From: Krasilnikoviella flava
GTDB taxonomy: Bacteria > Actinomycetota > Actinomycetes > Actinomycetales > Cellulomonadaceae
Length of the DNA stretch: 64,000 nucleotides
Direction: 5' to 3'
Assembly (NCBI RefSeq): GCF_900167525.1
Contig: NZ_FUZQ01000001.1
Span: 124,001-188,000 of the forward strand
Shown: piece after piece, positions 8,116-26,786 of the stretch
How positions within the stretch are numbered: the stretch's first letter is position 1
Layout: each line of letters begins with the position of its first letter
Program-made: the position numbers and the translations under genes
The notes under the pieces: generated by a model
What the model saw: the letters and a program-made list of their open reading frames with translations, nothing else
What the model was told of the DNA's origin: nothing
The model's database searches: none

Positions 8116-10422
8116 TCATCGGCCCAGGGTGACGGTGCCGGGGCCCTCGCCGGCCGCCGTCCGCTCCCCCGCCCGGACGCTCCAGGAGCCGGGGGCGTCG
8201 TCGGTCGTGACGACGACGTCGTCGCCGGCGCGACGCACGCGGAACCGCGCCGCCTCGCCGTCCGGCCCGCCCGTCGGCACGACGGTGACGGCGTCGTACC
8301 CGTCCGGGAGCTCGATGCACCGCAGCTCGACGCCGTCGGCCCAGGCGTAGTCGGGCCGGTCCCTGCGGCTCCCGACCGGCAGCACCGTGCCCGGGCGGAC
8401 CAGCACGGGCAGGGAGTCGAAGTCGTGGGTCTCGGTGACCCAGCGCGGGCCCGTCACGGTGGCCGCGTGCGTGCCGCCCGCGCCGTCGAGCAGCCGGGTC
8501 CACGTGCCCTCCGGCACGTAGTACTCGACCGCGCCGTCGGCCGTGAGGACCGGGGCGACGAGCAGGGCGCCGCCCAGCATGTACTGCGTGTCCACGCCGT
8601 AGGTGCCGCGGTCGGCGGGGAACTCCAGCGCCATCGGTCGCATGACCGGCGTGCCCGCGGCGTGCGCCTCCTCCCCCGCCGCGGCGAGGTAGGGCATGAG
8701 CGACATCTTCAGGTGGGTGAAGCGGCGCGCGACGTCGACGGCCTCCTCGTCGAACGCCCACGGCACGCGGTACGACGACGAGCCGTGGAGGCGCGAGTGG
8801 CTGGACAGCAGCCCGAACGCGAGCCAGCGCTTGAACACCCCGGCGTCGGGCGTGCCCTCGAAGCCGCCGATGTCGTGGCTCCAGTACCCGAACCCGGACA
8901 TCGCGAGCGACAGCCCGCCGCGCAGCGACTCGCCCATCGACGCATACGTCGAGTCGCAGTCACCGCCCCAGTGCACCGGGAACTGCTGGCCGCCCGCCGT
9001 GGCTGCCCGTGCGAAGACGACGGCCTCCCCGTGCCCGCGACGCCGCTCCAGCAGCCGGAAGACCGCCTCGTTGTACAGCTCCGCGTAGTAGTTGTGCATC
9101 CGGCGCGGGTCGGAGCCGTCGTGCCAGACGACCCCCTCGGTGGGCACGCGCTCGCCGAAGTCGGTCTTGAAGCAGTCCACGCCCTGGTCGAGCAGGCGCT
9201 CCAGGTGGCCCAGGTACCAGTCCGTGGCCTCGGGGTTCGTGAAGTCGACCAGGGCCATGCCGGCCTGCCACAGGTCCCACTGCCACACCCCGCCGTCCGT
9301 GGTCCGCAGCAGGTAGCCCTTCTCGCGACCCTCCGCGAACAGCGGCGAACGCTGCCCGATGTACGGGTTGATCCAGACGCTCACCTTCAGCCCGCGCTCG
9401 TGCAGGCGCGCCAGCATGCCCTCCGGGTCCGGGAAGACGCGCGGGTCCCACTCGAAGTCGCACCACTGGTACTCACGCATCCAGAAGCAGTCGAAGTGGA
9501 AGACGCTGAGCGGCAGCCCGCGCTCGGCCATCCCGTCCACGAACCGGGTCACCGTGGCCTCGTCGTAGTCCGTGGTGAACGACGTCGACAGCCAGGTGCC
9601 GTACGACCAGGCGGGCACGCGCGCCGGACGTCCCGTGAGCCCGGTGTACCGGCGCAGCACGTCCTTCGGTGTCGGGCCGGCGATGACGTAGTACTCGAGC
9701 GCCTGCCCCTCCACCGAGAACTGGACGCGAGTGTTCACCTCGGAGGCGACCTCGAGCGACACCCGCTCCGGGTGCGCCACGAACACCCCGTAGCCCTTGC
9801 TCGTCAGGTACAGGGGGACGTTCTTGTACGCCTGCTCGCTGGACGTCCCGCCGTCCTCGTTCCAGACGTCGACCGACTGCCCGTTCTTGACGAACGGACC
9901 GAACCTCTCGCCGAGCCCGTACACGTGCTCGCCGGGGTCGATCGTGAGCTGCTCGTGCACCCAGGCGCCGCCCTCGAGCGGGCCCGACGTCGCGCTCATG
10001 GCACCCACCGACTTGGGCAGGCTGGAGGTGAGCACGCGGCCGTCGTGCTCGAAGTCCACGTGCCACCCGCCGCCCCGGTGCACGCGCACGCTGAGGCCGC
10101 CGGTCTCGAGCACGCCCTCCGTCTCGTCGACCTTCACGACCGGCCGGAACCCCGGCTCCGCCGTCACGGCGAACTCGGGGCCGCGGCGCGCGGCGCCCGC
10201 GAAGTGCTCCACCCGCACGCGGACCACGCCCGGCGCGGGCGAGGAGTACGTGACCGTGAGCATCGGCCGGTTGAGGGTGTCGCCGCGGCGTCGGATCCGT
10301 GCGGTCGGGGCGTAGACGGTCATCGTGCCGGCGGCCTCGTCGACACGGACGTCGTCGACCTCCACCGCGTACAGCGGCTCGATGCCGCGGCGGGTCTGCC
10401 AGTAGCCGTCGGTGAACTTCAT
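8116..10422 (-). CDS. yicI: GH31 alpha-xylosidase (YicI-type)
   Basis: 768 residues, matching the 772 of E. coli YicI, and starting with the characteristic MKFTDGYW at ATG 10422. Removes alpha-1,6-xylosyl groups from the non-reducing end of xyloglucan oligosaccharides. The catalytic nucleophile is in FKTDFGE (Asp about 421) and the acid/base in [10 protein letters not shown] (Asp about 488), 67 residues apart as in YicI. The xylosidase-specific loop [19 protein letters not shown] is intact, which favours alpha-xylosidase over alpha-glucosidase. No signal peptide. It follows the importer genes with a 78-bp gap, so it probably completes that operon. Confidence 0.92.
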
Positions 10423-10500
10423 CAGGTGCACCTACTCCGTGCTGTCGTGTCGATGATGACGCCGGGCCCGGGGGCTCGCCGCGCCAGGGGGTCGGGGGTG

Positions 10501-11370
10501 CTACTTCACCGCGCCGGCGGTGACGCCACGCGTGAGGGTGCGCTGGAAGATCAGGAAGAAGACGAGGGCCGGGACGAGGGAGACGAGGGCCCCGGCGTTG
10601 GTCGTGGGGGCGTCCATCATCCGGTCGCCCTGCAGCGACGCGAGCGCGATGGGGATCGTCTGGGTGTCACCGGTCGTGAGCATGACCAACGGGATGAAGA
10701 ACTCGTTCCAGGTCCAGATGAAGAAGAAGATCATCAGCACCATCAGGGTGGGGCGCACGATCGGGAACACCACGCGCCACAGGATCCGCCAGCGCCCCGC
10801 GCCGTCCAGCGCCGCGGCCTCGAGCAGCGCCGGCGGGAACGTGCCCAGCACGGATGCCAGCAGATAGGTGCCGAAGGCCGACTGGATGACCGTGAAGATG
10901 ATGATGACGGACCACTGCGAGTTCGACAGGCCCACCTGGCGGGCCATGTCGAACAGCGGGTAGATCAGCGCCTCCTGCGGCAGCATGTTCGCGAGCAGGA
11001 ACAACAGCACCACCCACATCCGGCCCTTGATCCGGCCGATCCCGATCGCGTAGGCGTTGAGGAGCGAGAGCACGCAGGCCGCCACCGCCACGACCGCGGA
11101 GATGAAGAACGAGTTCCACAGCTTCACGGGGAACTCGGTGCGCTGCCAGAAGTTCACGAGCCCGTCGAGGTAGAGCCCGGTCGGGAGGCTGAGCGGCCCG
11201 TTCTGCGTGTAGTCGTCGGGCGACTTGAACGCGTTGAGCAGCATGACCAGCAGCGGCGCGACGACGAGCAGCGCGACGACGACGGCGCCCGCGAGCACGA
11301 ACCAGCGCCCGGCGCCCCGGTGGTGACGGTCGCCGGTGCGGGCCCGCACGGTCGCCAGGGTCGCGGCCAT
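10501..11370 (-). CDS. Carbohydrate ABC transporter permease, MalG/CUT1 type
   Basis: 289 residues with about six membrane segments. The EAA loop of CUT1 permeases is visible (LLEAAALDGAGRWRILWRVVFP), which contacts the ATPase, and the C-terminus TLTRGVTAGAVK is typical of MalG-like subunits. The ATG at 11370 overlaps the stop of the partner permease (ATGA), indicating translational coupling. It acts as the inner-membrane channel half for the solute-binding protein encoded two genes upstream. No ATPase gene is nearby, so it presumably uses a shared MsmK/MsiK-type ATPase. Confidence 0.92.
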   Translation of the reverse strand: MAATLATVRARTGDRHHRGAGRWFVLAGAVVVALLVVAPLLVMLLNAFKSPDDYTQNGPLSLPTGLYLDGLVNFWQRTEFPVKLWNSFFISAVVAVAACVLSLLNAYAIGIGRIKGRMWVVLLFLLANMLPQEALIYPLFDMARQVGLSNSQWSVIIIFTVIQSAFGTYLLASVLGTFPPALLEAAALDGAGRWRILWRVVFPIVRPTLMVLMIFFFIWTWNEFFIPLVMLTTGDTQTIPIALASLQGDRMMDAPTTNAGALVSLVPALVFFLIFQRTLTRGVTAGAVK

Positions 11371-12332
11371 CAGCGCCCCACCTCCTCGGCCCGCTCGGCG
11401 CGCGACTGCAGCGCGAGGATGACGACGGCCACCACGACGATCACCACCGTGAGCACGGTCGCGACGGCGGCGCCGTAGCCGACGCGCGACTTGTCGAAGA
11501 AGTTGAGGTACGAGTAGTAGCTCGGCACGAGCGTGGAGCTCTCCGGGCCGCCGCGGGTCAGCACGTAGATCGGGCCGAAGACCTTGAGCGCCGCGACCGT
11601 GCACGTGAGCGTCACGACGAACGTCTCCGGCCGGATCTGCGGGATCGTGATGGCCCGGAACCGCCGCCACCAGCCGGCGCCGTCGAGCTCCGCCGCCTCG
11701 TACAGCTCGGGGTCGACCCGCTGCAGCGCCGCCATGAAGATCACCACGGGGTAGCCGATCTGCACCCAGATCAGCACGAGCATGACGCTCGGCAGCGCCG
11801 TGCTCGGGTCGCCGAGCCAGTTCGGCGGGCTCGCGACACCCAGGGCGCGCAGGAGCTCGTTGAGCGCGCCGGTCTGGGCGTTGAGGATCCAGTTCCACAG
11901 CACGCCCGCGACCGCGACGGGGAGGATCTGCGGCAGGTAGTACGTGGCCCGCAGGACGGACGCCACGCGGGTGCCGAAGCGCCGGCCCAGGTAGTCGAAC
12001 AGCACCGCCGCGAGCAGGAGGCCGACCACCGTCGGTACGAGCACCATCGCGACGATCATCGCGATCGAGTTCTGGAACGACGTCCAGAAGGCCGCGTCGT
12101 GCCAGAGCTCCGTGTAGTTGTCGAGACCCACCCACGTGAGGGGGGCCAGCCCGCCGCGCCAGGAGAAGAGGCTGATGTAGACGTTGGTCACCAGCGGGTA
12201 CCCGATGACGAGCACGAAGAGCACCGCGCCGGGCAGCAGGTACGCCAGGTAGGGCAGGGATCGGCCGCGGCGGCGGGGCGTCCGGACGCGGGCCCGGGAC
12301 GCCGCCGCGGGCGGGCTGAGGGTGGCGGTCAC
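11370..12332 (-). CDS. Carbohydrate ABC transporter permease, MalF/CUT1 type
   Basis: 320 residues with an N-terminal cytoplasmic Arg-rich stretch and six predicted membrane segments beginning at LPYLAYLLPGAVLFVLVIGYP. The EAA loop LYEAAELDGAGWWRRFRAITIP is conserved. The GTG start at 12332 lies 4 bp after the solute-binding protein stop, and the 3' end overlaps the second permease by 4 bp. The three genes form one importer operon (binding protein, permease, permease) that continues into the GH31 alpha-xylosidase. Confidence 0.92.
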   Translation of the reverse strand: MTATLSPPAAASRARVRTPRRRGRSLPYLAYLLPGAVLFVLVIGYPLVTNVYISLFSWRGGLAPLTWVGLDNYTELWHDAAFWTSFQNSIAMIVAMVLVPTVVGLLLAAVLFDYLGRRFGTRVASVLRATYYLPQILPVAVAGVLWNWILNAQTGALNELLRALGVASPPNWLGDPSTALPSVMLVLIWVQIGYPVVIFMAALQRVDPELYEAAELDGAGWWRRFRAITIPQIRPETFVVTLTCTVAALKVFGPIYVLTRGGPESSTLVPSYYSYLNFFDKSRVGYGAAVATVLTVVIVVVAVVILALQSRAERAEEVGR

Positions 12333-12336
12333 GTCG

Positions 12337-13662
12337 TCACTCGCCGAGCAGGTCGGCCTTGCCGTCCGTGTAGGCGGACTGCAGCCCGTCGAGCACCTGC
12401 TCGGGCGACTTCGACCGGTTCACCAAGGACTGCAGCTGGCTGACGACCGTGTCGTAGTAGCCGGGCACCGGCCAGTCGGGGTAGAACGCCAGGCCGTCGT
12501 CGTCGAGGATCGCCTGGAAGTTCTCGGTGAGCTCGCGCGTCTTGTCGTCCGTGATGGTCGACGCGTCGCCCGCGACCGGCAGGCCGCCGGTCTGCGCCAG
12601 GACGTCCTGCACCTCGGGCCGCAGCGTCGTGTCGATGAACTCGGTGGCCAGCGACGAGGAGTCCGCGTTGGTCGGGACCACCCACAGGTTGCCCGACGAG
12701 CCGGTGTGCAGCGCGTTGCCCGGGAAGTTGAACTGGCCCCAGTCGTCCTTCATCTCGGCCGTCACGCGGCCGAACCACCAGGAGCCGGAGATCATCATCG
12801 GGTAGTCGCCCTTCATGAAGGCGACGCCCATGTCCTCGGCCGTCAGGCCGGCGGAGTCAGGGGCGACGTACCCGTCCTCGATCCACCGGTCGAGCTGCTC
12901 GGTGGCCGCCGTCATCTCGGGACCGTGGAAGTCGACGTCGCCGTCGAAGAGCTGGTACTGGTCCACGAGCTCCCGGTCGGCGTTGGCCAGCACGAGCTCG
13001 TACCAGAGCTGCCCCATCGGATACTCGGCGCCGGCCTCGGCGAGCGGGGTGATGCCGTCGTCCTTGAACGCCTTCATGACCTGCTCGAGCTCGTCGAGGG
13101 TGGTGGGCACCTCGAGGCCCGCCTCGCTGAACATCGTCTTGTTGTAGTAGACGCCCACGAACTCGCCGTAGTTGGGCACCCCGTACCAGTCGCCGGAGCC
13201 CATGAGGCCGTTCTCGTCGTACCGCGCGGTGGTCTGCAGCGAGCCGGTCAGCATGTCGGCCCAGCCGTTCTGCTCGGCCGCGTCGGTCAGCGGGGCGATC
13301 AGCCCCTGCGCGGCGAGCTGCCCCGCGGTCGCGTTGCCCTTGTTGTACTCCATGACGTCGGGCACGTCGTCGCCGGTCAGCACGATCTTCGCGTTCTTCT
13401 GGATCTGCTCGAAGGTCTGCTTCTCGACCTCGACGGTGACGTCCGGGTGCTCGTCCTCGAAGATCTCGATCGCCTTGGCCCAGGCCTGGCCCATTGCCGA
13501 GTCGTCGTTCTCGTAGTGCCAGATCGTCAGGGTCTTGTCGTCGGTGTCGCCGGCCCCGGCGGTCGTTCCGCCCCCTCCGTCACCGCCCACGCAGGCGGTC
13601 AGCGTCAGGGCCGACGCGGCGATCAGGGCGGCCGCGGAGACGGTGCGCGCGCGGTGGAGCAT
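12337..13662 (-). CDS. Sugar-binding lipoprotein of CUT1 ABC importer
   Basis: 441 residues. The signal peptide ends in the lipobox LTAC (Cys about 24), so the mature protein is a membrane-anchored lipoprotein. After a Gly/Asp/Thr linker, the mature part starts LTIWHYEN, typical of family 1 solute-binding proteins, and contains conserved [31 protein letters not shown] and [15 protein letters not shown] segments. It should deliver an oligosaccharide to the two permeases downstream. Linkage with the alpha-xylosidase suggests a xylosylated glucan oligosaccharide. A TCGAAGCGCTTCGA operator lies 75 bp upstream of the ATG at 13662. Confidence 0.92.
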
Positions 13663-16447: not shown

Positions 16448-17446
16448 GTGGCCACCATCGAGGACGTCGCGAAGGCGGCGGGAGTCTCGGCGTCGACCGT
16501 CTCCTACGTGCTCTCGGGCAAGCGGTCCATCTCCGCGCCCACGCGCCGGCGGGTGGAGCAGGCGATCGCCACGCTGGGCTACCGGCCGCACGCCGGGGCG
16601 CGCGCGCTCGCCTCGGCGCGCACGGAGGTCATCGGGCTCACGATCCCGCTGCGCTCCGGCATCGACGTGCCCGTGATCATGCAGTTCGCGGGCGGCGTCG
16701 TGACCCGGGCCCGCGAGCACTCGCACGACGTCCTGCTGCTCACCCAGGACGACCTGGAGGGCCTCGAGCGCGCCACGAACGGCTCGATGGTCGACGCGCT
16801 CGTCGTCATGGACGTCGAGGCCGACGACGCCCGCATCCCGATCCTTACCCGGTCCCGGCAGCCGTCCGTCCTGGTCGGCCTGCCCCGGGACGCCTCGGGG
16901 CTGTCGTGCGTCGACCTGGACTTCGAGGCCGCCGGCCGCCTCGCGGCCCAGCACCTGTCGGAGCTCGGGCACCGCCAGGTGGCGATGCTCGGTGCGCCGC
17001 CGGAGGTCGTGGACCGGCACACCTCGTACGTGGACCGCGTGATGCGCGGGTTCGCGGAGGGAGCCCCGGACCACGGGCTCGACGCGAAGGTGGTCTCCTG
17101 CCCGGGCGCTCCCGCCGAGGTCGCCCGCGTGGTCGACGAGCTTCTCGCCGAGGCCCCTGGGACGAGCGGGCTGTTCGTGCACAACGAGCGCGCGCTGCCG
17201 CACGTGCTGTCCTCCCTGCGCGAGGCGGGCCGGTCGGTGCCCGGGGACGTGTCCGTGATCGCCCTGTGCCCGGAGGACGTCGCGCTGGCACAGCAGGTCC
17301 CGATGACCGCCATCGACCTCCCGGCGTCGACGATCGGCAGCCTCGCCGTGGACATGGTCATGGCCCGGCTGGACGGCGGCCAGCACGCCGAGACCCGGCT
17401 GCTGACGCCCGTGCTGACCACCCGCGGCAGCACCGCCCGCCACTGA
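16448..17446 (+). CDS. LacI-family transcriptional repressor
   Basis: 332 residues starting at GTG 16448, 2 bp after the GH95 stop. The N-terminal helix-turn-helix is intact (TIEDVAKAAGVSASTVSYVLSG), followed by the hinge ARALASAR that inserts Leu in the minor groove, and a periplasmic-binding-protein-like effector domain (VIGLTIPLRSGIDVPV, LVGLP, DFEAAGRLAAQHLSELGHR). It is the only regulator inside the glycan region and is flanked by three TCGAAGCGCTTCGA-type sites, so it is the best candidate for the repressor of that regulon. The effector sugar is unknown. Confidence 0.92.
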   Translation: MATIEDVAKAAGVSASTVSYVLSGKRSISAPTRRRVEQAIATLGYRPHAGARALASARTEVIGLTIPLRSGIDVPVIMQFAGGVVTRAREHSHDVLLLTQDDLEGLERATNGSMVDALVVMDVEADDARIPILTRSRQPSVLVGLPRDASGLSCVDLDFEAAGRLAAQHLSELGHRQVAMLGAPPEVVDRHTSYVDRVMRGFAEGAPDHGLDAKVVSCPGAPAEVARVVDELLAEAPGTSGLFVHNERALPHVLSSLREAGRSVPGDVSVIALCPEDVALAQQVPMTAIDLPASTIGSLAVDMVMARLDGGQHAETRLLTPVLTTRGSTARH

Positions 17447-17601: not shown

Positions 17602-18630
17602 GTGAGCCTCACCCAGGGAGCGCCGCCGCTCGACAGCGGCGCCACCGCACCACCGGTACGAGATCGGCGGCGAGGACGGGACGACGACCAGGAGGGGCGA
17701 CGGCACACGCGGGTCGCGCGCCGGACGGGCAAGAAGAAGGCGTCCCCGGCGATGTTCCTCGTCGTCCTCCCCTTCCTCGTCCTCGTCCTCGTGTTCTCCT
17801 ACCTGCCGCTCGCCGGCTGGGCGACGGCCTTCTTCGACTACAAGCCCGCCCTCGGGCTGTCCGGCAGCGAGTTCGTCGGGCTCCAGTGGTTCCGGATGCT
17901 CGTGTCCTCCCCCACGCAGCTGCAGCAGATCGGGCAGGTCATGGCGAACACGCTCGCCATGAGCTTCCTCGGCATCGCGACCTCGCTGCTCCCGGTGTTC
18001 TTCGCGATGCTCCTCAACGAGATCCGCGCCCCGTGGTTCAAGAACGCGGTGCAGACCCTCACGACGCTCCCGAACTTCATCTCGTGGGTGCTCGTCTACA
18101 TGATCGCGTTCTCGATGTTCTCCACGTCGGGTCTCGTGAACTCGGTGCTGAACGACTGGGGCCTGATCACCACGCCGATCAAGTTCCTCGACACCGGTGA
18201 GCACGTGTGGCTCACCATGCTGCTCTGGAGCCTGTGGAAGGGGCTCGGGTGGGGCGCGATCATGTATCTCGCCGCCATCACCTCGATCGACCCGGCGCTG
18301 TACGAGTCGGCGCGCATCGACGGCGCCGGCCGGTTCCAGCTCATGCGGTACATCACCTTCCCGCAGCTGATGCCCACCTATGTGGTCCTGCTCGTGCTCT
18401 CCATCGCGAACATGCTCAACAACGGGATGGAGCAGTACTACGTGTTCCAGAACGCCTTCAACAAGGAGCACATCCAGGTGCTGGACCTGTACGTCTACAA
18501 CATCGGCATCACCGGCAACAGCCTGTCGATGGCCACCGCGCTGGGCATGTTGAAGAGCGTCATCTCCGTCCTCCTGCTCGTCACGGCCAACGCGATCGCC
18601 AAGCGTGCCCGCGGCACGTCGATCATCTGA
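17602..18630 (+). CDS. ABC transporter permease, LplB/PTS-independent polysaccharide type
   Basis: 342 residues from GTG 17602, preceded by GAGGGAGTG. A charged cytoplasmic N-terminus of about 48 residues precedes six membrane segments, the first at MFLVVLPFLVLVLVFSYLP. The EAA loop LYESARIDGAGRFQLMRYITFPQL is conserved. Features such as NNGMEQYYVFQNAFN and the C-terminal AKRARGTSII place it in the LplB/YteP group of importers for complex plant oligosaccharides (uronate, xylan or pectin type). It is the first gene of a three-gene importer operon with no ATPase. Confidence 0.92.
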   Translation: MSLTQGAPPLDSGATAPPVRDRRRGRDDDQEGRRHTRVARRTGKKKASPAMFLVVLPFLVLVLVFSYLPLAGWATAFFDYKPALGLSGSEFVGLQWFRMLVSSPTQLQQIGQVMANTLAMSFLGIATSLLPVFFAMLLNEIRAPWFKNAVQTLTTLPNFISWVLVYMIAFSMFSTSGLVNSVLNDWGLITTPIKFLDTGEHVWLTMLLWSLWKGLGWGAIMYLAAITSIDPALYESARIDGAGRFQLMRYITFPQLMPTYVVLLVLSIANMLNNGMEQYYVFQNAFNKEHIQVLDLYVYNIGITGNSLSMATALGMLKSVISVLLLVTANAIAKRARGTSII

Positions 18631-18642
18631 GAGGGACGAATC

Positions 18643-19560
18643 GTGCCCAAGACCAGCGACGCGCTGAAGCGCACGCGCGGGGACGTCCCCTTCGCGCTCG
18701 TCAACTACGTCGGGTTCCTGCTCTTCGCGCTCCTGTGCGCGTACCCCTTCTACTTCCTGATCATCAACTCGGTCAGCGCCAACGACGTCAGCGCACTCGG
18801 GGACATCCGGCTGTGGCCCGAGGGGCTGCACCTGTCGAACTACTCCCAGATCCTCCAGCTGGACGGCCTCTCCGCCGCCGCCGTCGTCTCCGTCGCCCGC
18901 ACCGTGATCGGCACCGCGTGCACGGTCCTGGCGTCCGCGTTCCTGGGCTACATGTTCACTCAGGAACGAATGTGGAAGCGCTCCCTCTGGTATCGCCTCA
19001 TCATCTTCACGATGTACTTCAGCGCAGGGCTCATCCCGCTGTACATCACGATGAAGACGCTGGGGCTCACCAACTCGTTCTGGGTGTACATCCTCCCGGC
19101 GATCGTGCAGCCGTTCAACATCATCCTCGTCAAGACGTACGTGGAGTCGATGCCGCGCTCGCTGCAGGAGGCGGCCGAGATCGACGGGGCCGGCACGATC
19201 CGGACCTTCTTCCGGATCATCCTGCCGAACATGACGCCGATCCTCGCCACCGTGGCGATCTTCACGGCGGTGGCCCAGTGGAACTCGTTCCAGGACACGC
19301 TCCTGTACATCACCGACCAGAAGCTCTACTCCCTGCAGTACCTGCTCTACACGTACACGAACCAGGCGAACAGCCTGGCGCAGGCGGCGCAGAACGCCCA
19401 GGGAAACCTCGGCGCCATCGTCTCTGCGGCCACCACGCAGACACCGACGTCGATCCGCATGACGGTCGCCGTGCTCGTGGTGCTGCCGATCATCTTCATC
19501 TACCCGCTGTTCCAGCGGTATTTCGTCAAGGGAATCATGCTCGGCGCGGTCAAGGGCTGA
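18643..19560 (+). CDS. ABC transporter permease, YtcP/YesQ type
   Basis: 305 residues from GTG 18643, preceded by the ribosome site GAGAGGGACG. Six membrane segments and the EAA loop LQEAAEIDGAGTIRTFFRIILPN are visible. The end YFVKGIMLGAVKG is typical of YtcP-group permeases, which pair with LplB-type partners. It lies 12 bp after the first permease and 29 bp before the binding protein. An operator-like TGGAAGCGCTCCCT lies inside the gene at 18973-18986. Confidence 0.92.
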   Translation: MPKTSDALKRTRGDVPFALVNYVGFLLFALLCAYPFYFLIINSVSANDVSALGDIRLWPEGLHLSNYSQILQLDGLSAAAVVSVARTVIGTACTVLASAFLGYMFTQERMWKRSLWYRLIIFTMYFSAGLIPLYITMKTLGLTNSFWVYILPAIVQPFNIILVKTYVESMPRSLQEAAEIDGAGTIRTFFRIILPNMTPILATVAIFTAVAQWNSFQDTLLYITDQKLYSLQYLLYTYTNQANSLAQAAQNAQGNLGAIVSAATTQTPTSIRMTVAVLVVLPIIFIYPLFQRYFVKGIMLGAVKG

Positions 19561-19589
19561 CCGCGTCTCGTCGCGCACGAAGGGGTGTC

Positions 19590-21347
19590 ATGAAACTCAG
19601 GAGAACCGTCGCCATGGTGGTGGTCCCGCTGCTCGGGGCGCTGTCGCTGGCGGCCTGCACGGCCGCAGGGTCCGACGACGACCCGTCCGGCCCGGTCAGC
19701 ATCGACCAGGACTGGTCCGAGGCCGACCCGATCACCGTCGACGTCTACGACGGCCTGGCCAACTACATGGGGATCCAGGGCGGGTGGTTCGGCAAGATCG
19801 TCAAGGACAAGTTCAACATGGAGCTCAACATCATCGCTCCCAACGTCGCGGGCGGGGGCGACACCCTCTACAACACCCGCGTCTCCGGGGGTGAGCTGGG
19901 CGACCTCGTCGTCGTCGACAAGGGGCGGCAGATGGACGAGCTCGTCGAGGGCGGCCTGCTGCTGGACGCCTCCGACTACTACGGGTCCATGACGAACGTG
20001 TCGCCGTTCGACACGGCCGTCCAGCACCTCAACGAGGGCAAGGAGGGCGTCTACGGCTTCCCCACGTCGGTCTCCTCCCTCAAGCCGACCGAGTCGTCCG
20101 AGGGCATCGACCCCACGTTCGGCCCGTACCTGCGGTGGGACCTGTACGCCGACGCCGGCTACCCGGAGATCGGCACGCTCGAGGACCTCCTGCCGATCCT
20201 CAAGACGATGCAGGACGCCCATCCCCAGACCGACGACGGCAAGCCGGTCCACGCCATCTCCCTGTTCAAGGACTGGGACGGCAACATGATGGTCACCGCC
20301 AAGCAGCCCGCGACCCTCTACGGGTACGACGAGATGGGCTTCGTCCTCGCGAAGGCGGACGGGTCCGACTACCAGAGCATCGTCGACCCGGACTCCCAGT
20401 ACGTGCGTTCGCTGAAGTTCTACTTCGACGCCAACCAGCTGGGCCTGGTGGACCCGGAGTCCACCACCCAGAACTACGACACGATGTTCGCGAAGTACCA
20501 GGCCGGCCAGGTGCTGCTCTCGTGGTGGCCGTGGCTGGGTCAGTCCGCGTACAACACCGAGCAGAACATGGCGGACGGCAAGGGCTTCGAGCTGGCCCCG
20601 CTGCAGGACCAGAAGGTCTTCTCCTACGGCGCCGAGGTGTACGGCGGCAAGCAGATCATCGGCATCGGCTCGGGCGCCGAGGACCCGGCCCGCCTGGCCG
20701 CGTTCGTCGACTGGCTCTACTCCCCCGAGGGCATCCTCGCCAGTGCCTCGGAGACCCAGGGGGCGGCCGGCCCCGAGGGCCTCACCTGGGAGAAGGGCGA
20801 GGACGGTGCCCCCGTGTTCACCGACTTCGGCACGAAGGCGATCCTCGAGGGCGGCGCCGACGTGCCCGCCGAGTGGGGCGGCGGCGCGTACAAGGACGGT
20901 GTCTCGGCGCTCAACGTCTCCACGGTGCTGCCGATCGACGAGAACCCCGACACGGGCTACCCGTACAGCTACAAGTACTGGCCGAGCTACCAGGAGACGA
21001 CCAGCAACCCGCTGACCGACGACTGGACCTCCCACATGGGCGACCCCGCCTCGACGATGGACTACCTGCAGCAGAACGACCAGGTCGTCGTCGCCCCGGG
21101 CGCGAGCTTCACCACCCCGACGGACAGCTCCGAGATCGAGGCCATCCGCAGCCAGGTCAAGGCCACCATCATCGAGCACTCCTGGAAGATGGTCTTCGCC
21201 AAGGACGACGCGGAGTTCGACGCCCTGCTCGCACAGATGCAGTCGACGGTCGACGGCCTCGGCTACGCCACCGTGCTCGAGTTCGACATGGCGAACGCCA
21301 AGGCGCAGAACGACGCGCGCGTCGCGGTCGCCAAGGAGTTCGGGTGA
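19590..21347 (+). CDS. Sugar-binding lipoprotein, LipO/YtcQ type
   Basis: 585 residues from ATG 19590 with ribosome site GAAGGGG. The signal peptide ends at the lipobox LAAC (Cys about 23). The length well above 440 and the pattern GGWFGKIVKDKFNMELNII, VVDKGRQMDELVEGG and EVYGGKQIIGIGSGAEDPARLAAFVDWLYSPEG are characteristic of the large LipO/YtcQ binding proteins for oligosaccharides of plant polysaccharides. It is the last gene of the importer operon, closed by a 19-bp hairpin. Confidence 0.92.
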   Translation: MKLRRTVAMVVVPLLGALSLAACTAAGSDDDPSGPVSIDQDWSEADPITVDVYDGLANYMGIQGGWFGKIVKDKFNMELNIIAPNVAGGGDTLYNTRVSGGELGDLVVVDKGRQMDELVEGGLLLDASDYYGSMTNVSPFDTAVQHLNEGKEGVYGFPTSVSSLKPTESSEGIDPTFGPYLRWDLYADAGYPEIGTLEDLLPILKTMQDAHPQTDDGKPVHAISLFKDWDGNMMVTAKQPATLYGYDEMGFVLAKADGSDYQSIVDPDSQYVRSLKFYFDANQLGLVDPESTTQNYDTMFAKYQAGQVLLSWWPWLGQSAYNTEQNMADGKGFELAPLQDQKVFSYGAEVYGGKQIIGIGSGAEDPARLAAFVDWLYSPEGILASASETQGAAGPEGLTWEKGEDGAPVFTDFGTKAILEGGADVPAEWGGGAYKDGVSALNVSTVLPIDENPDTGYPYSYKYWPSYQETTSNPLTDDWTSHMGDPASTMDYLQQNDQVVVAPGASFTTPTDSSEIEAIRSQVKATIIEHSWKMVFAKDDAEFDALLAQMQSTVDGLGYATVLEFDMANAKAQNDARVAVAKEFG

Positions 21348-21446: not shown

Positions 21447-22094
21447 TCACTGCCCGGAGTGCGGGCTCACCGGCTCGAGCGCCGACGGGTGGGCCTGTCG
21501 GCGGCGGAAGACGCCGTGCAGCAGGAAGGCGCACACGTACGCGCCGAACGAGAGCCCGATCGTCGCGCCCAGGAAGAGCGTCTGCGGGGCGACGAGGGAC
21601 AGGCAGACCGCGCCCACCGGGATCAGCACCAGCAGCAGCGTGCGCGCCGGCTCGATCAGCGGCAGGAGCAGCGCGTTGCGCAGCGTCCGGCGCAGCGGAG
21701 CGTCGAACCACGCCGCCAGGGCGAGGGCGTAAAGCAGCGACGCCAGGAGGAAGCACGCGCCCAGCAGCGCGAGCACCCCCGCCACGGCGCTCGGCACGCC
21801 GGTCAGCGAGAGCCAGAAGACGCCGCTGAACACGAGCATCGCCGCCGGCAGCCCGAGCGCCGCGAACGCCGCGGTGCCCCGCCAGGCGTTGCGCCCGAGA
21901 GCGACGACGAACCCGCGCACCAGGTGCCCGCGCTCGTCGTCGGCATAGCGCAGCGTCACCTCGAACAGCGCGCTGGTGGCGGCGCCGATCGTGACGACGG
22001 GCAGGCAGGCCACGAGGTACAGGACGTTGAGGACCACGAACAGGACGAACGTGGTCATGCCCTGGGCTCCTCGGCCCTCGGGGTCGATCCTCAT
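21447..22094 (-). CDS. YesL-like DUF624 membrane protein
   Basis: 215 residues with about four to five membrane segments (FVLFVVLNVLYLVACLP, AAFAALGLPAAMLVFSG, AVAGVLALLGACFLLASLL, ARTLLLVLIPVGAVCLSL, LGATIGLSFGAYVCAFLL). It fits the DUF624/YesL family, which recurs next to LplB/YtcP/LipO importers and glycosidases but has no established biochemical role. The ATG at 22094 overlaps the stop of the GH3 gene by 4 bp (ATGA), so the two are translationally coupled. A role in oligosaccharide uptake is inferred from context only. Confidence 0.8.
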   Translation of the reverse strand: MRIDPEGRGAQGMTTFVLFVVLNVLYLVACLPVVTIGAATSALFEVTLRYADDERGHLVRGFVVALGRNAWRGTAAFAALGLPAAMLVFSGVFWLSLTGVPSAVAGVLALLGACFLLASLLYALALAAWFDAPLRRTLRNALLLPLIEPARTLLLVLIPVGAVCLSLVAPQTLFLGATIGLSFGAYVCAFLLHGVFRRRQAHPSALEPVSPHSGQ

Positions 22095-24601
22095 CGTGTC
22101 GCGACCTCCACCGTGAGCCGCTGCCGCGCCGGCAGGTCGACGCTGGACGGCCCGGCCGCGAGCAGGTACTCCCCCGGCTGGACGCGGAGGGCGCCGTCGA
22201 GCGCGCCGCCCCCGGGCGCGTCCTCCCAGACGGCCAGGCGAGCCACGTCGACCGGGACGTCCACGACAGCCTCCTGACCGGGCGCGAGGCGCACGCGCCG
22301 GTAGCCCAGCAGCAGGCGCACGGGGGTGCCGGTCTCCGCCGCCGGGCAGCCGAGCGAGTAGACCTGCACGAGCTCCTCGGCCGGGCGGTCGCCGGAGTTC
22401 CGCACCGTCACGCGCGCCGTGAGCACACCGGGCGCGGACGGGTCGGTCGGGTGCAGCGGCGGGTGGTCGCGGGTCGGCGCCGGGGCGGCGACGGCGGCCG
22501 GTGAGAGGTCGAGCCCGCCGTAGACGACGTCGCCGTACGTGAGGCCGTGGCCGAAGGCGAACGCCGGGACCCCGAGGTCGCCGGCGGGCAGGTGCCGGTA
22601 GGTGACCTGCTGGCGGCGGGTGTCGTAGTCGAACAGGTCGCCGGCCTGCTCCGGCCGCGCCGGCCACGTCTGGGCGAGGCGGCCGGTGGGCTCGACGGCC
22701 CCGGTCAGCACGTCGGCGAGGCCGTGCCCGAGCTCCTGCCCGCCGTGACTGCTCCACACGACGGCCGCCGCGTGCTCGGCGCCCGGCCCGAGCACGTAGG
22801 GGTAGCTCGACACGATCGCCAGGACGGCGCGAGGGTTGGCGTCGGAGGCCGCCCGCCACACCTCGACCGCGGCGTCCGGGAGCATCAGGTGCGGGCGGTC
22901 CTGCGTCTCGCGCCCGCCCAGGTGCGGGTCGTTGCCGACCACCACGACGACCGCGTCGCAGAGCGCGGCGACCTCGGCCACCCGCGCCGCCCCGGACTCC
23001 AGGACGCGGGGCACGAACCGCGCGGCGTCGCCGAGCGTCCGGCCCTCGGCGCACAGCACGCCGGTGCCCCGCTGCACCCGCACCCAGCGCCCCGAGCCCA
23101 GGTGCAGCAGCGACCACGAGCCGTCGGCGTGCACGTGGCGGCGGAAGCTCTCCTGCACCTCCCAGCCGCCCACCCGGTCCGCGTCGGCACGCAGCGGCCA
23201 GGACGCGCCGGTCAGCAGCCGCCCGGACGCCGCCGCGCGCAGGGTCAGCACGCCGTCGCCCCAGTCGGTCACCTGGAGGTGCGTGCTCTTGTCCGCGCCG
23301 GCGGCGTCGGCGACGACGCTCGCCCCGTCCGCGGAGACCGCGACGTAGCGGTCGGAGCCCGCCACGCGCAGCGCGACGACGTCGGCCCCGGTCGCGACCT
23401 CCACGCGGTCGGGACCGAAGACGTCGCGCAGCCCGTCCGCGGGCGTGACCGCGTAGGGCGGCGTGCCCGAGTACCAGTCGGTGAGCACGACGTCGGCGAG
23501 CGGGCCGACGACGGCCACCGAGCCGGCGGCCAGCGGCAGCGTCCGGTCGTCGTCGCGCAGGACGACGACGGACCGGGCGGCGGCCTCCCGGGCGAGCCGG
23601 CGGTGCTCCGGGGGGTCGATCGTGCCGTGCTGCGCGTACGGGTCCTGGTCGCCGTCCAGCTCGCCAGTGCGGATCCGCAGCTCCAGGAGCCGCAGCACCG
23701 CCCGGTCGATCTCCTCCCGCGTGAGCAGGCCACGCTCCAGCGCCTCCTCGATCCGCCGGACGGTGGGACCGCGGTCCGCGTCGTCGTCCGTGAACGAGTC
23801 GACGCCCGCCCGCACCATCGCGGCGTTCCCGGCGGCGCGGTCGGGAGCCGCACCCTGCAGCGTCACGAGGAAGGCCGGCGCCGCGGCGTCCGACACGAGC
23901 GCGACCGAGCCCGGGGCCCACGACCGCAGCTCGTCGAACAGCTCGCCCTGCAGGTGCGCCGGCACGCCGTTCACCTGGTTGTACGACGGCATCACCGCGC
24001 CGGCCACCCCCGCCTCGACGGGTCCGCGGAAGGCGGGCAGCTCCTCCTCGTGCAGGGTGCGGGGGTCGAGGTTCGAGCTCGTCGAGGACCGGTCGGTCTC
24101 GTTGTTGTACGCGAGGAAGTGCTTGAGGGTCGGCACCGTCGTCCACACCCGCTCGTGCTCGCCGCGCAGACCCCGGCTGTACGCGGTCGCGAGGTGCGCG
24201 GTGAGGTGCGGGTCCTCCGCGTACCCCTCCTCGTTGCGGCCCCAGCCCGGGTGTCGCAGCGTGTTGACGACCGGCGCCCAGACGTTGAGGCTCACCGACG
24301 GGTCGGCGCGGTGCTTGGCCCGCACCTCGCCCGCGACCGCAGCGCCGACGCGGCGCAGCAGGTCGGTGTCCCAGGTCGCCGCGAGCCCCACCGGCTGCGG
24401 GAAGACGGTGGCCTCGCCGAGCCACGCCACCCCGTGCAGCGCCTCGCAGCCGGTGTGGAACGGCGCGAGCCCGAGCCGCTGGACGGCGGGCGCGTGCTGG
24501 TGCAGCATCGCGACCCGCTCGTCGTGGGAGAGGCGGGACAGCAGGTCCCGGGCGCGCTCGGGCACGGGCAGGCGGTGGTCACGGAAGGCAGGCACGTCCA
24601 C
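22091..24601 (-). CDS. GH3 beta-glucosidase with inserted beta-trefoil-like domain
   Basis: 836 residues from GTG 24601; no signal peptide. The (beta/alpha)8 domain carries VPTLKHFLAYNNETD (substrate Lys-His) and the nucleophile in ALVSDAAAP (Asp about 237, usually followed by Trp, here by Ala). The second alpha/beta domain is split: residues about 405-535 (DRYVAVSADG, LTLRAAASGRLLTG, WSLLHLGSGRWVRV) read as a fascin/beta-trefoil-like insert where many GH3 enzymes carry PA14. A C-terminal fibronectin-III-like domain follows. It should act on imported beta-glucosides. A TCGAAGCGCTTCAA operator lies 54 bp upstream. The insert assignment is by pattern only. Confidence 0.88.
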   Translation of the reverse strand: MDVPAFRDHRLPVPERARDLLSRLSHDERVAMLHQHAPAVQRLGLAPFHTGCEALHGVAWLGEATVFPQPVGLAATWDTDLLRRVGAAVAGEVRAKHRADPSVSLNVWAPVVNTLRHPGWGRNEEGYAEDPHLTAHLATAYSRGLRGEHERVWTTVPTLKHFLAYNNETDRSSTSSNLDPRTLHEEELPAFRGPVEAGVAGAVMPSYNQVNGVPAHLQGELFDELRSWAPGSVALVSDAAAPAFLVTLQGAAPDRAAGNAAMVRAGVDSFTDDDADRGPTVRRIEEALERGLLTREEIDRAVLRLLELRIRTGELDGDQDPYAQHGTIDPPEHRRLAREAAARSVVVLRDDDRTLPLAAGSVAVVGPLADVVLTDWYSGTPPYAVTPADGLRDVFGPDRVEVATGADVVALRVAGSDRYVAVSADGASVVADAAGADKSTHLQVTDWGDGVLTLRAAASGRLLTGASWPLRADADRVGGWEVQESFRRHVHADGSWSLLHLGSGRWVRVQRGTGVLCAEGRTLGDAARFVPRVLESGAARVAEVAALCDAVVVVVGNDPHLGGRETQDRPHLMLPDAAVEVWRAASDANPRAVLAIVSSYPYVLGPGAEHAAAVVWSSHGGQELGHGLADVLTGAVEPTGRLAQTWPARPEQAGDLFDYDTRRQQVTYRHLPAGDLGVPAFAFGHGLTYGDVVYGGLDLSPAAVAAPAPTRDHPPLHPTDPSAPGVLTARVTVRNSGDRPAEELVQVYSLGCPAAETGTPVRLLLGYRRVRLAPGQEAVVDVPVDVARLAVWEDAPGGGALDGALRVQPGEYLLAAGPSSVDLPARQRLTVEVATR

Positions 24602-24745: not shown

Positions 24746-26029
24746 TCAGGCGACGGGCACGCCCGCCCGCAGCACGCGGCGTACGCGCAGGTCGCCGTCC
24801 GTCACCACGACGTCGGCGCGACGGCCGACCACGAGGCCGCCGACGTCGGCGAGCCCGAGCACGCGGGCCGGCACCCAGGACGCGGAGCGGACGGCGTCGA
24901 CGAGCGGGACGCCCGCGGCGACGGTCGCGCGAACGACGTCGAGCAGGTGGGCCGTGCCGCCCGCGATCGCGCCGCCGTCGGGATCGGCCGGGTCGGCGAG
25001 GCGGGCGACGCCGTCGCGCACCGTCACCGCCATGGGCCCCAGCTCGTAGGAGCCGTCGGCCATTCCGACCGCAGCCATCGCGTCCGTGACGAGGGCGACC
25101 TGGTCGGCCCCGACCGTCTCGACGACGGTGCGCACGGTGGCCGGGGCGAGATGCACGCCGTCCGCGACGAGCTCCACGACCAGCTCGCCGCGGGCGGCAG
25201 CGGCCAGGCACGCGGCGATCGGGCCGGGCGCGCGGTGGTGCAGCGGGCGCATCCCGTTGAACAGGTGGGTGGCGGTCATCTCGCGCGCGGGCGCGGCCCC
25301 GGCGGCGGCCTGCGCGACCAGGCCCGCGGCGACCTGCGCGAGCAGCGCCTCGGCCTGCTCCGTCGTCGCGTCGGTGTGCCCGAGCGAGGGCACCACGCCT
25401 GCGGCCACGAGGGCCTCGGCCGCCCCGCCGGGCCCGGCGACGCCGTCGACCTCGGGGGCCACGGTCATGGTGCGCAGCTGCCCGCGCGATGCCTCGACGA
25501 GGTCGCGGACCAGGCGGGTGTCGCCGGGCACGAGGTCGTCGGGGCTCTGCGCACCGCGGCGCGCGTGCGAGAGGAACGGGCCCTCGGCGTGGATGCCCGC
25601 GATCTCGCCGGCCTCCGCGAGGTCGGCGAGCATCGCCGCACGGGCCAGCAGCGTCTCGCGGCCCGCCGTGACCAGCGACGCGAGCATCGTCGTCGTGCCG
25701 TGCCGGCGGTGCTCGAGCACCGCGACCATCGCCTCGTCGGCGGACGTCGCGTCCGGGAAACCGACACCGCCGCCGCCGTGGTCGTGCAGGTCCACGAGGC
25801 CGGGCAACAGCACCGTCCCCGGCTCGGGGGCCTGGGCGCGGGCCACTGCCGCGGCCACGTCCCGGTCGGCGTGCTCGGCCGCGGCGATCGGGCCCACCCA
25901 CCGCACGAGGCTGTCGGCCAGGACGACCACGCCGTCCTCGACGTCGTCGTGCGGCGTCACGACACGCCCGCGCAGAGCGACGAGCTCGCCGTGCTCAGGG
26001 GTGGTGGCCGTGGGGGTGGCAGCGCTCAT
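24746..26029 (-). CDS. nagA: N-acetylglucosamine-6-phosphate deacetylase
   Basis: 427 residues, somewhat longer than typical NagA. Removes the acetyl group from GlcNAc-6-phosphate in amino-sugar catabolism. Amidohydrolase motifs: LLPGLVDLHDHGGGGVGF (metal-binding HxH variant), GIHAEGPFLS (metal Glu), SLGHTDAT and ATHLFNGM (His ligands), and LVTDAMAAVG (catalytic Asp). The ATG at 26029 has AGGATG upstream; an in-frame ATG at 26038 is less likely. It is adjacent to the glycan region but has no copy of its operator and no nagB or PTS gene nearby, so it may be regulated separately. Confidence 0.93.
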   Translation of the reverse strand: MSAATPTATTPEHGELVALRGRVVTPHDDVEDGVVVLADSLVRWVGPIAAAEHADRDVAAAVARAQAPEPGTVLLPGLVDLHDHGGGGVGFPDATSADEAMVAVLEHRRHGTTTMLASLVTAGRETLLARAAMLADLAEAGEIAGIHAEGPFLSHARRGAQSPDDLVPGDTRLVRDLVEASRGQLRTMTVAPEVDGVAGPGGAAEALVAAGVVPSLGHTDATTEQAEALLAQVAAGLVAQAAAGAAPAREMTATHLFNGMRPLHHRAPGPIAACLAAAARGELVVELVADGVHLAPATVRTVVETVGADQVALVTDAMAAVGMADGSYELGPMAVTVRDGVARLADPADPDGGAIAGGTAHLLDVVRATVAAGVPLVDAVRSASWVPARVLGLADVGGLVVGRRADVVVTDGDLRVRRVLRAGVPVA

Positions 26030-26090
26030 GCGCCACATCCTGCCGCACGGCGCCGGCATTGCGAAACCATCCTGACAAACCCTTGGGTGG

Positions 26091-26786
26091 TCAGAAGAGA
26101 CGCGAATCCACGTCGTCGACCCCGCGCATCGCGTCGTAGTCGAGGACCAGGCACTCGATCCCGCGGTCCGTCGCGAGCACGCGCGCCTGGGGCTTGATCT
26201 CCTGGGCGGCGAAGACGCCGCGCACCGGGGCGAGCAGGGGGTCCCGGTTGAGGAGCTCGAGGTACCGGGTCAGCTGCTCGACGCCGTCGATGTCGCCACG
26301 GCGCTTGAGCTCCACCGCGACCGTCGCGCCGGAGGCGTCGCGGGCGAGGATGTCCACCGGCCCGATCGCCGTCATGTACTCGCGGCGCACCAGCGTGTGC
26401 CCTGCGCCGAGGTGGTGGATCTGTGCGGCCAGCAGCTCCTGCAGGTGGGCCTCGACACCGTCCTTGACCAGGCCGGGATCGATGCCCAGGTCGTGGGCGG
26501 AGTCGTGCTCGACCTCGTGCAGCTCGATCTCCAGGCGGTCGTCCGACTTCTGGTGCTGCACCGTCCACACCTGGGTGACGCCGCGCTCGCGGGCCTCGTC
26601 GTCGGGCTCCCCGACCGCCGTCGAGCAGGGCGGGCTCATCCAGTTCAGCGGCTTGTACGAGCCGCCGTCGGAGTGCAGCAGCACGCTGCCGTCCGCCTTG
26701 ACGACGATGAGCCGCGTGGCGAGCGGCAGGTGCGCGGTGAGCCGGCCGGTGTACCGGGCCGAGCAGCGGGCGACGACGAGACGCAC
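26091..26786 (-). CDS. nucS: Endonuclease NucS (non-canonical mismatch repair)
   Basis: 231 residues from GTG 26786. NucS/EndoMS cuts both strands at mismatches and replaces MutS/MutL in actinobacteria and some archaea. The N-terminal dimerisation domain ([16 protein letters not shown]) is followed by the restriction-like nuclease domain with [12 protein letters not shown] and [13 protein letters not shown], giving the catalytic D-ExK residues. It sits downstream of the atp cluster and DUF2550 gene, an arrangement common in actinobacterial genomes. Assignment is secure. Confidence 0.95.

Follow-up and report, generated by a model that had tools for sequence, protein, structure and literature searches.

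A predicted beta-trefoil within the alpha/beta domain of a GH3 exo-glycosidase from Krasilnikoviella flava

The GH3 exo-glycosidase encoded on the minus strand at 22091–24601 of the 64,000-nucleotide stretch of DNA from the soil bacterium Krasilnikoviella flava analyzed here (the window) carries, as judged from structural models, a fascin/lectin-like beta-trefoil (residues 404–535) within its alpha/beta domain. GH3 is among the largest glycosidase families, and most of what is understood about the roles of domains inserted in its members concerns PA14. Linked to xyloglucan breakdown by gene context, a conserved trefoil at a position comparable to that of PA14 offers a testable specificity determinant, and the signature of the trefoil-bearing GH3 can assist the annotation of xyloglucan clusters in actinobacteria and Bacillota. 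The trefoil GH3 is well conserved but is not a radically new enzyme architecture.

The open reading frame runs from 24601 to 22091 and encodes 836 residues, starting at a GTG codon preceded by the ribosome-binding site GAGGAGG. No signal peptide is visible, and the in-frame stretch upstream of the GTG leaves no room for one before a stop codon, so the enzyme is probably cytoplasmic. Plus-strand coding of the same interval was rejected, the frame being interrupted by a stop and representing a shadow ORF only. Pfam matched the protein to Glyco_hydro_3 at residues 45–307 (23681–24469; PF00933, E 6.4e-33), Glyco_hydro_3_C at residues 345–689 (PF01915) and a fibronectin III-like domain at residues 743–820 (22142–22375; PF14310, E 3e-11). 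The first of these is the N-terminal (beta/alpha)8 domain. GH3 membership is supported by scores of 115 bits for PF00933 (cut-off 27) and 135 bits for PF01915 (cut-off 31), both above the cut-off. The Glyco_hydro_3_C profile has 200 positions yet spans 345 residues, which indicates an insertion inside this domain. Pfam and the model divide the minus-strand coding sequence of the alpha/beta domain into a first part, residues 345–403 (23393–23569), ending in the strand 400–403, then the insert, residues 404–535 (22997–23392), and a second part, residues 536–689 (22535–22996).

AF2 modelling of the insert by itself, with 37 relatives aligned, predicted twelve beta-strands in three sub-repeats (pLDDT 93.3, pTM 0.86). 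The full-protein model (pLDDT 92, pTM 0.93) showed the same trefoil strands inside a confident GH3. There, the GH3-C strand VEVA (residues 400–403) is followed by the trefoil (404/407–535), and GH3-C resumes with a helix at residues 537–547. The preliminary description of this gene had proposed a fascin-like trefoil insert in the second domain, at about residues 405–535, and had pointed to the repeats RYVAVSADG, RLLTGASW and RWVRVQRG. All three repeats are present and correspond to beta-strands of the predicted trefoil; the fold is supported by the model, Foldseek, VIA-align and profile searches, and the gene was confirmed at the stated coordinates, on the minus strand.

A Foldseek search of the insert against the PDB returned CBM92 as the top match (E 1.6e-7); after it came fascin as well as designed trefoils and growth factors. 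In VIA-align the trefoil matches of the insert model had overall Z scores of 16–19, and fascin (Z 18.8) and CBM92 (Z 18.3) are tied as the closest fold to the model. The insert profile matched the PDB sequences of fascin (E 1.1e-12) and CBM92 (E 1.8e-10), and no GH3 chain among the PDB sequences was matched. Use of the family profile was required, as a single-sequence search of the PDB with the window insert gave weak matches only, the best at E 0.012. Against the Pfam Fascin model the window insert scored 21.4 bits, under the gathering cut-off of 23.1, while the relative from Bacillus paralicheniformis scored 38.4 bits, above the cut-off. Judged by the profile E-values and the confident separate fold, the match of the insert to trefoils exceeds chance.

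The insert had also been described as unlike the PA14 domain, and structure prediction and Pfam bear this out. PA14 (PF07691) found no match in the 836-residue protein or anywhere in the whole genome, which rules out a PA14 insert. An ordinary portion of GH3 is ruled out by the model and by alignment with six other GH3s of the genome, which have only a short loop at the trefoil position. Local alignment with the PA14-bearing yeast BglI stops at window residue 403 and yeast residue 382, next to the start of PA14 in the yeast enzyme.

An alignment with GH3 sequences had been suggested as a means of finding where the insert starts and how widespread it is. It starts after VEVA and was carried by the GH3 relatives of the trefoil family at all 92 loci examined, from Actinomycetota to Bacillota. 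In the family to which K. flava belongs, the insert profile was detected in 51 of 121 genomes (42%) and 15 of 25 genera, a few weak matches being unrelated trefoils. Phylum-wide it was found in 14 of 396 genomes, two of them weak matches, and in the phylum of B. paralicheniformis in 9 of 398, two of which match proteins without a full GH3. This distribution over the family, the phylum and a second phylum points to an old, patchy subfamily. One Bacillota genome has insert-profile trefoils in very long ORFs without GH3 (loci L116 and L119, 2238 and 2454 residues).

Among the papers searched, none was found that describes GH3 enzymes with a trefoil insert. A conserved-domain name for bacterial GH3, beta-trefoil FSCN BglX-like, likewise returned nothing in a literature search, and earlier cataloguing of trefoil-bearing GH3 in CDD is likely. 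The architecture is real and conserved and apparently undescribed in the literature searched, though domain databases may list it already.

A candidate sugar-binding site, WEVQESF (residues 480–486; 23144–23164, minus strand), is found in the second sub-repeat, in the loop that precedes its last strand. W480 is present in 38 of 38 aligned sequences and E484 in 36 of 38, and the W-xxx-E-x-F motif occurs in 87 of the 92 loci. In the same 38-sequence alignment DWG at residues 446–448 is, like W480 and E484, conserved between phyla. CBM92 binds glucose via the Trp and Glu of the equivalent loop and repeats WExF at three sites (PMC11039641). In the window insert W-xxx-E-x-F was detected in one sub-repeat only, and the repeated WExF of CBM92 was not found. 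As the window family keeps at most one CBM92-like site, and with a different spacing, it falls outside the definition of CBM92.

These observations bear on two other readings of the trefoil. It is distinctly improbable that it is a true CBM92-like module anchoring the enzyme on glucan that is insoluble or part of the cell wall. Such a role would suit the top Foldseek match and the one conserved Trp/Glu loop, but CBM92 has its motif at three sites where a single related sub-repeat is seen here, and an enzyme that lacks a signal peptide would not meet the polymer. A structural or oligomerization insert, making no contact with substrate, is rather unlikely. Trefoils often act as scaffolds, and the closest fold by Z belongs to a protein that bundles actin, fascin. 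Nevertheless, W480, E484 and DWG 446–448 are kept between phyla, which is more than a spacer needs, and PA14 at a comparable site affects the substrate specificity of yeast BglI, according to work cited in PMC6887791. The earlier suggestion that the insert could contact side chains of the substrate is a plausible one, in keeping with the xyloglucan gene context described below.

Asp238 in SDAAAP (23888–23890) and Glu565 in GRETQDR (22907–22909), both encoded on the minus strand, are predicted to be the catalytic nucleophile and the general acid/base. D238 and A239 are invariant in the 38 aligned relatives, as is E565, which lines up with EGYDR in an ordinary GH3 encoded elsewhere in the genome. 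Both D238 and E565 align with the usual GH3 nucleophile and acid/base, in the 38-sequence alignment and against other GH3s of K. flava. Distant Bacillota members have GKEEIDR in place of GRETxDR. The dipeptide DA at the nucleophile is present in nearly all of the 92 loci, and D-A-x-A-P, with Ala at +1, is at the level of sequence a signature of the subfamily. The earlier remark that AAAP takes the place of the common W-G after the nucleophile was correct as to the motif present; a Trp here is not a general GH3 rule, the residue being Y, W, W, G, G and A in six other GH3s of the genome and C or Y in solved GH3 xylosidases. The residue next to the nucleophile in barley ExoI is a Trp that lines the +1 site. 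By analogy, the small Ala239 may leave space for a branched sugar at +1.

Gene context was counted in 80 loci of relatives from related genomes, covering up to 8 kb on each side and taking strong matches for GH31. A GH31 alpha-xylosidase was found in 37 of these loci, immediately upstream on the same strand in 20 of 80; the other 43 had no strong match within the distance covered. GH42 was present in 58 of 80 and GH95 in 20 of 80, and Pfam confirmed two GH42 proteins and one GH95 protein among the neighbors. The GH31 proteins tested with NCBIfam were alpha-xylosidase equivalogs, far above the cut-off. In 12 further loci from other genomes GH31 was near the GH3 in six, including Bacillota and distant actinobacteria with less than 50% identity. 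Alpha-xylosidase, beta-galactosidase and alpha-fucosidase are xyloglucan side-chain enzymes.

In the window the GH31 alpha-xylosidase (8116–10431, minus strand; NCBIfam alpha-xylosidase PRK10658, 1204 bits against a cut-off of 606) is about 11.7 kb from the GH3 gene, in a different cluster. The interval 8116–13662, all on the minus strand, contains this gene and a separate ABC transporter (permease 10501–12135, substrate-binding lipoprotein 12337–13662). It is likely to be a second part of the xyloglucan system that is split from the GH3 locus here.

Nearer to the GH3 gene is a LacI-type regulator (16448–17446, plus strand), with homologues near GH3 in 53 of 80 loci; the homologue in locus L009 matches the Pfam LacI model. 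An ABC sugar transporter (17602–21347, plus strand) comprises permeases at 17602–18630 and 18643–19560 and a lipoprotein substrate-binding protein from 19590. It is convergent with the GH3 gene and is kept near GH3 in close relatives. Directly downstream of GH3 is a DUF624 (YesL-like) membrane protein (21447–22055, minus strand; PF04854, E 4.3e-11). Since its homologue is near GH3 in 18 of 80 loci, including loci with another gene order, this protein may belong to the transporter. Taken with the absent signal peptide, the adjacent ABC transporter speaks for a cytoplasmic enzyme acting on imported oligosaccharides.

Upstream of GH3, the interval 24746–26786 holds an N-acetylglucosamine-6-phosphate deacetylase-like (NagA) gene (203.5 bits, under the cut-off of 225.65) and a NucS-like gene. 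NagA is near GH3 in 15 of 80 loci and NucS in 17 of 80, and since the loci are few and the two co-occur in actinobacteria they are probably chromosomal background. A beta-N-acetylglucosaminidase, as the adjacent NagA might suggest, was set aside on these counts. A C-terminal CBM6 was seen in several relatives (among them L061:7920-10823 and L048:7977-10853, the L048 match being under the Pfam cut-off); the window protein has none. The CBM6-bearing relatives and a Bacillus copy with a possible signal peptide indicate that cellular location may vary in the subfamily.

With regard to substrate, the balance of evidence tips modestly toward a cytoplasmic retaining exo-beta-glucosidase (or isoprimeverose-releasing enzyme) acting on imported xyloglucan oligosaccharides, with the trefoil on the acceptor side. 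A beta-xylosidase or alpha-L-arabinofuranosidase of xylan use seems quite unlikely: although the best curated GH3 matches are Xyl3A and a xylosidase/arabinosidase, and the top PDB sequence match is a beta-xylosidase, all curated matches are far under the cut-off (324 against 1250 bits) and the recurrent neighbors, alpha-xylosidase and beta-galactosidase, are xyloglucan rather than xylan enzymes.

The main rival concerning substrate is an isoprimeverose-producing enzyme, which would release Xyl-Glc straight from XXXG, leaving GH31 to split the isoprimeverose, while the trefoil reads the branch. It ranks as the main one because the sole bacterial example, which comes from the actinomycete Oerskovia, is a CBM6-bearing GH3 (PMC6325624), and several relatives of the window protein also have a C-terminal CBM6. 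Fungal isoprimeverose enzymes match the whole model with Z of 35–36, but ordinary beta-glucosidases and xylosidases rank at least as high, and the window protein is without CBM6. This reading is doubtful overall.

For the preferred xyloglucan oligosaccharide enzyme, D238 and E565 would carry out the retaining two-step mechanism of the GH3 family. Gene context suggests that glucose, or the Xyl-Glc unit isoprimeverose, would be cut from the non-reducing ends of imported xyloglucan oligosaccharides, in partnership with the GH31 alpha-xylosidase, the GH42 beta-galactosidase and, in some relatives, the GH95 alpha-fucosidase. From its position, the W480/E484 site and the PA14 precedent, we infer that the trefoil most likely contributes to the wall and platform on the acceptor side (+1 and beyond). 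There, the W480/E484 site would stack on the xylosylated glucan, and Ala239 in place of Trp would widen the +1 site for a branched sugar. A broader proposal can be offered only tentatively: that the GH3 subfamily of two phyla, defined by D-A-x-A-P and GRETxDR, employs its embedded single-site trefoil as an integral subsite for xyloglucan oligosaccharides with branches. This would be a second answer, arrived at independently, at the position where other GH3s rely on PA14.

A biochemically characterized precedent for the gene set is the Xyl31A–Glu3A–Gal42A system of Ruminiclostridium cellulolyticum, in which a cytoplasmic GH3 is encoded with GH31 and GH42 and is supplied by ABC import. Imported XXXG is trimmed alternately by the alpha-xylosidase and Glu3A, and Glu3A acts on GXXG but does not cleave XXXG, while its activity on cellobiose is poor (PMC4780118). 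A Glu3A-type context, with GH31 and GH42 co-encoded, is found in many relatives of the window GH3, with the distance to GH31 given above in the window itself. The Oerskovia sp. Y1 isoprimeverose GH3, compared by description (PMC6325624), is likewise an actinomycete enzyme for xyloglucan oligosaccharides, and differs from the window protein in its CBM6, a module shared with several relatives. Kluyveromyces marxianus BglI (PDB 3abz/3ac0) resembles the whole model with Z 43.9 and has a beta-rich insert in the GH3 alpha/beta domain, which is PA14 in the yeast enzyme and a beta-trefoil here. CBM92 of Chitinophaga pinensis (PDB 7zoh) shares the beta-trefoil fold and the Trp/Glu from the loop before the fourth sub-repeat strand, but possesses WExF at three sites and is attached to its enzyme as an appendage, whereas the window trefoil has one W-xxx-E-x-F and is inserted within the catalytic protein. 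Human fascin (PDB 1dfc/3llp) is alike in fold, by both profile and Z, but consists of four tandem trefoils that bundle actin and is no enzyme, in contrast to the single trefoil of the window, set in a GH3.
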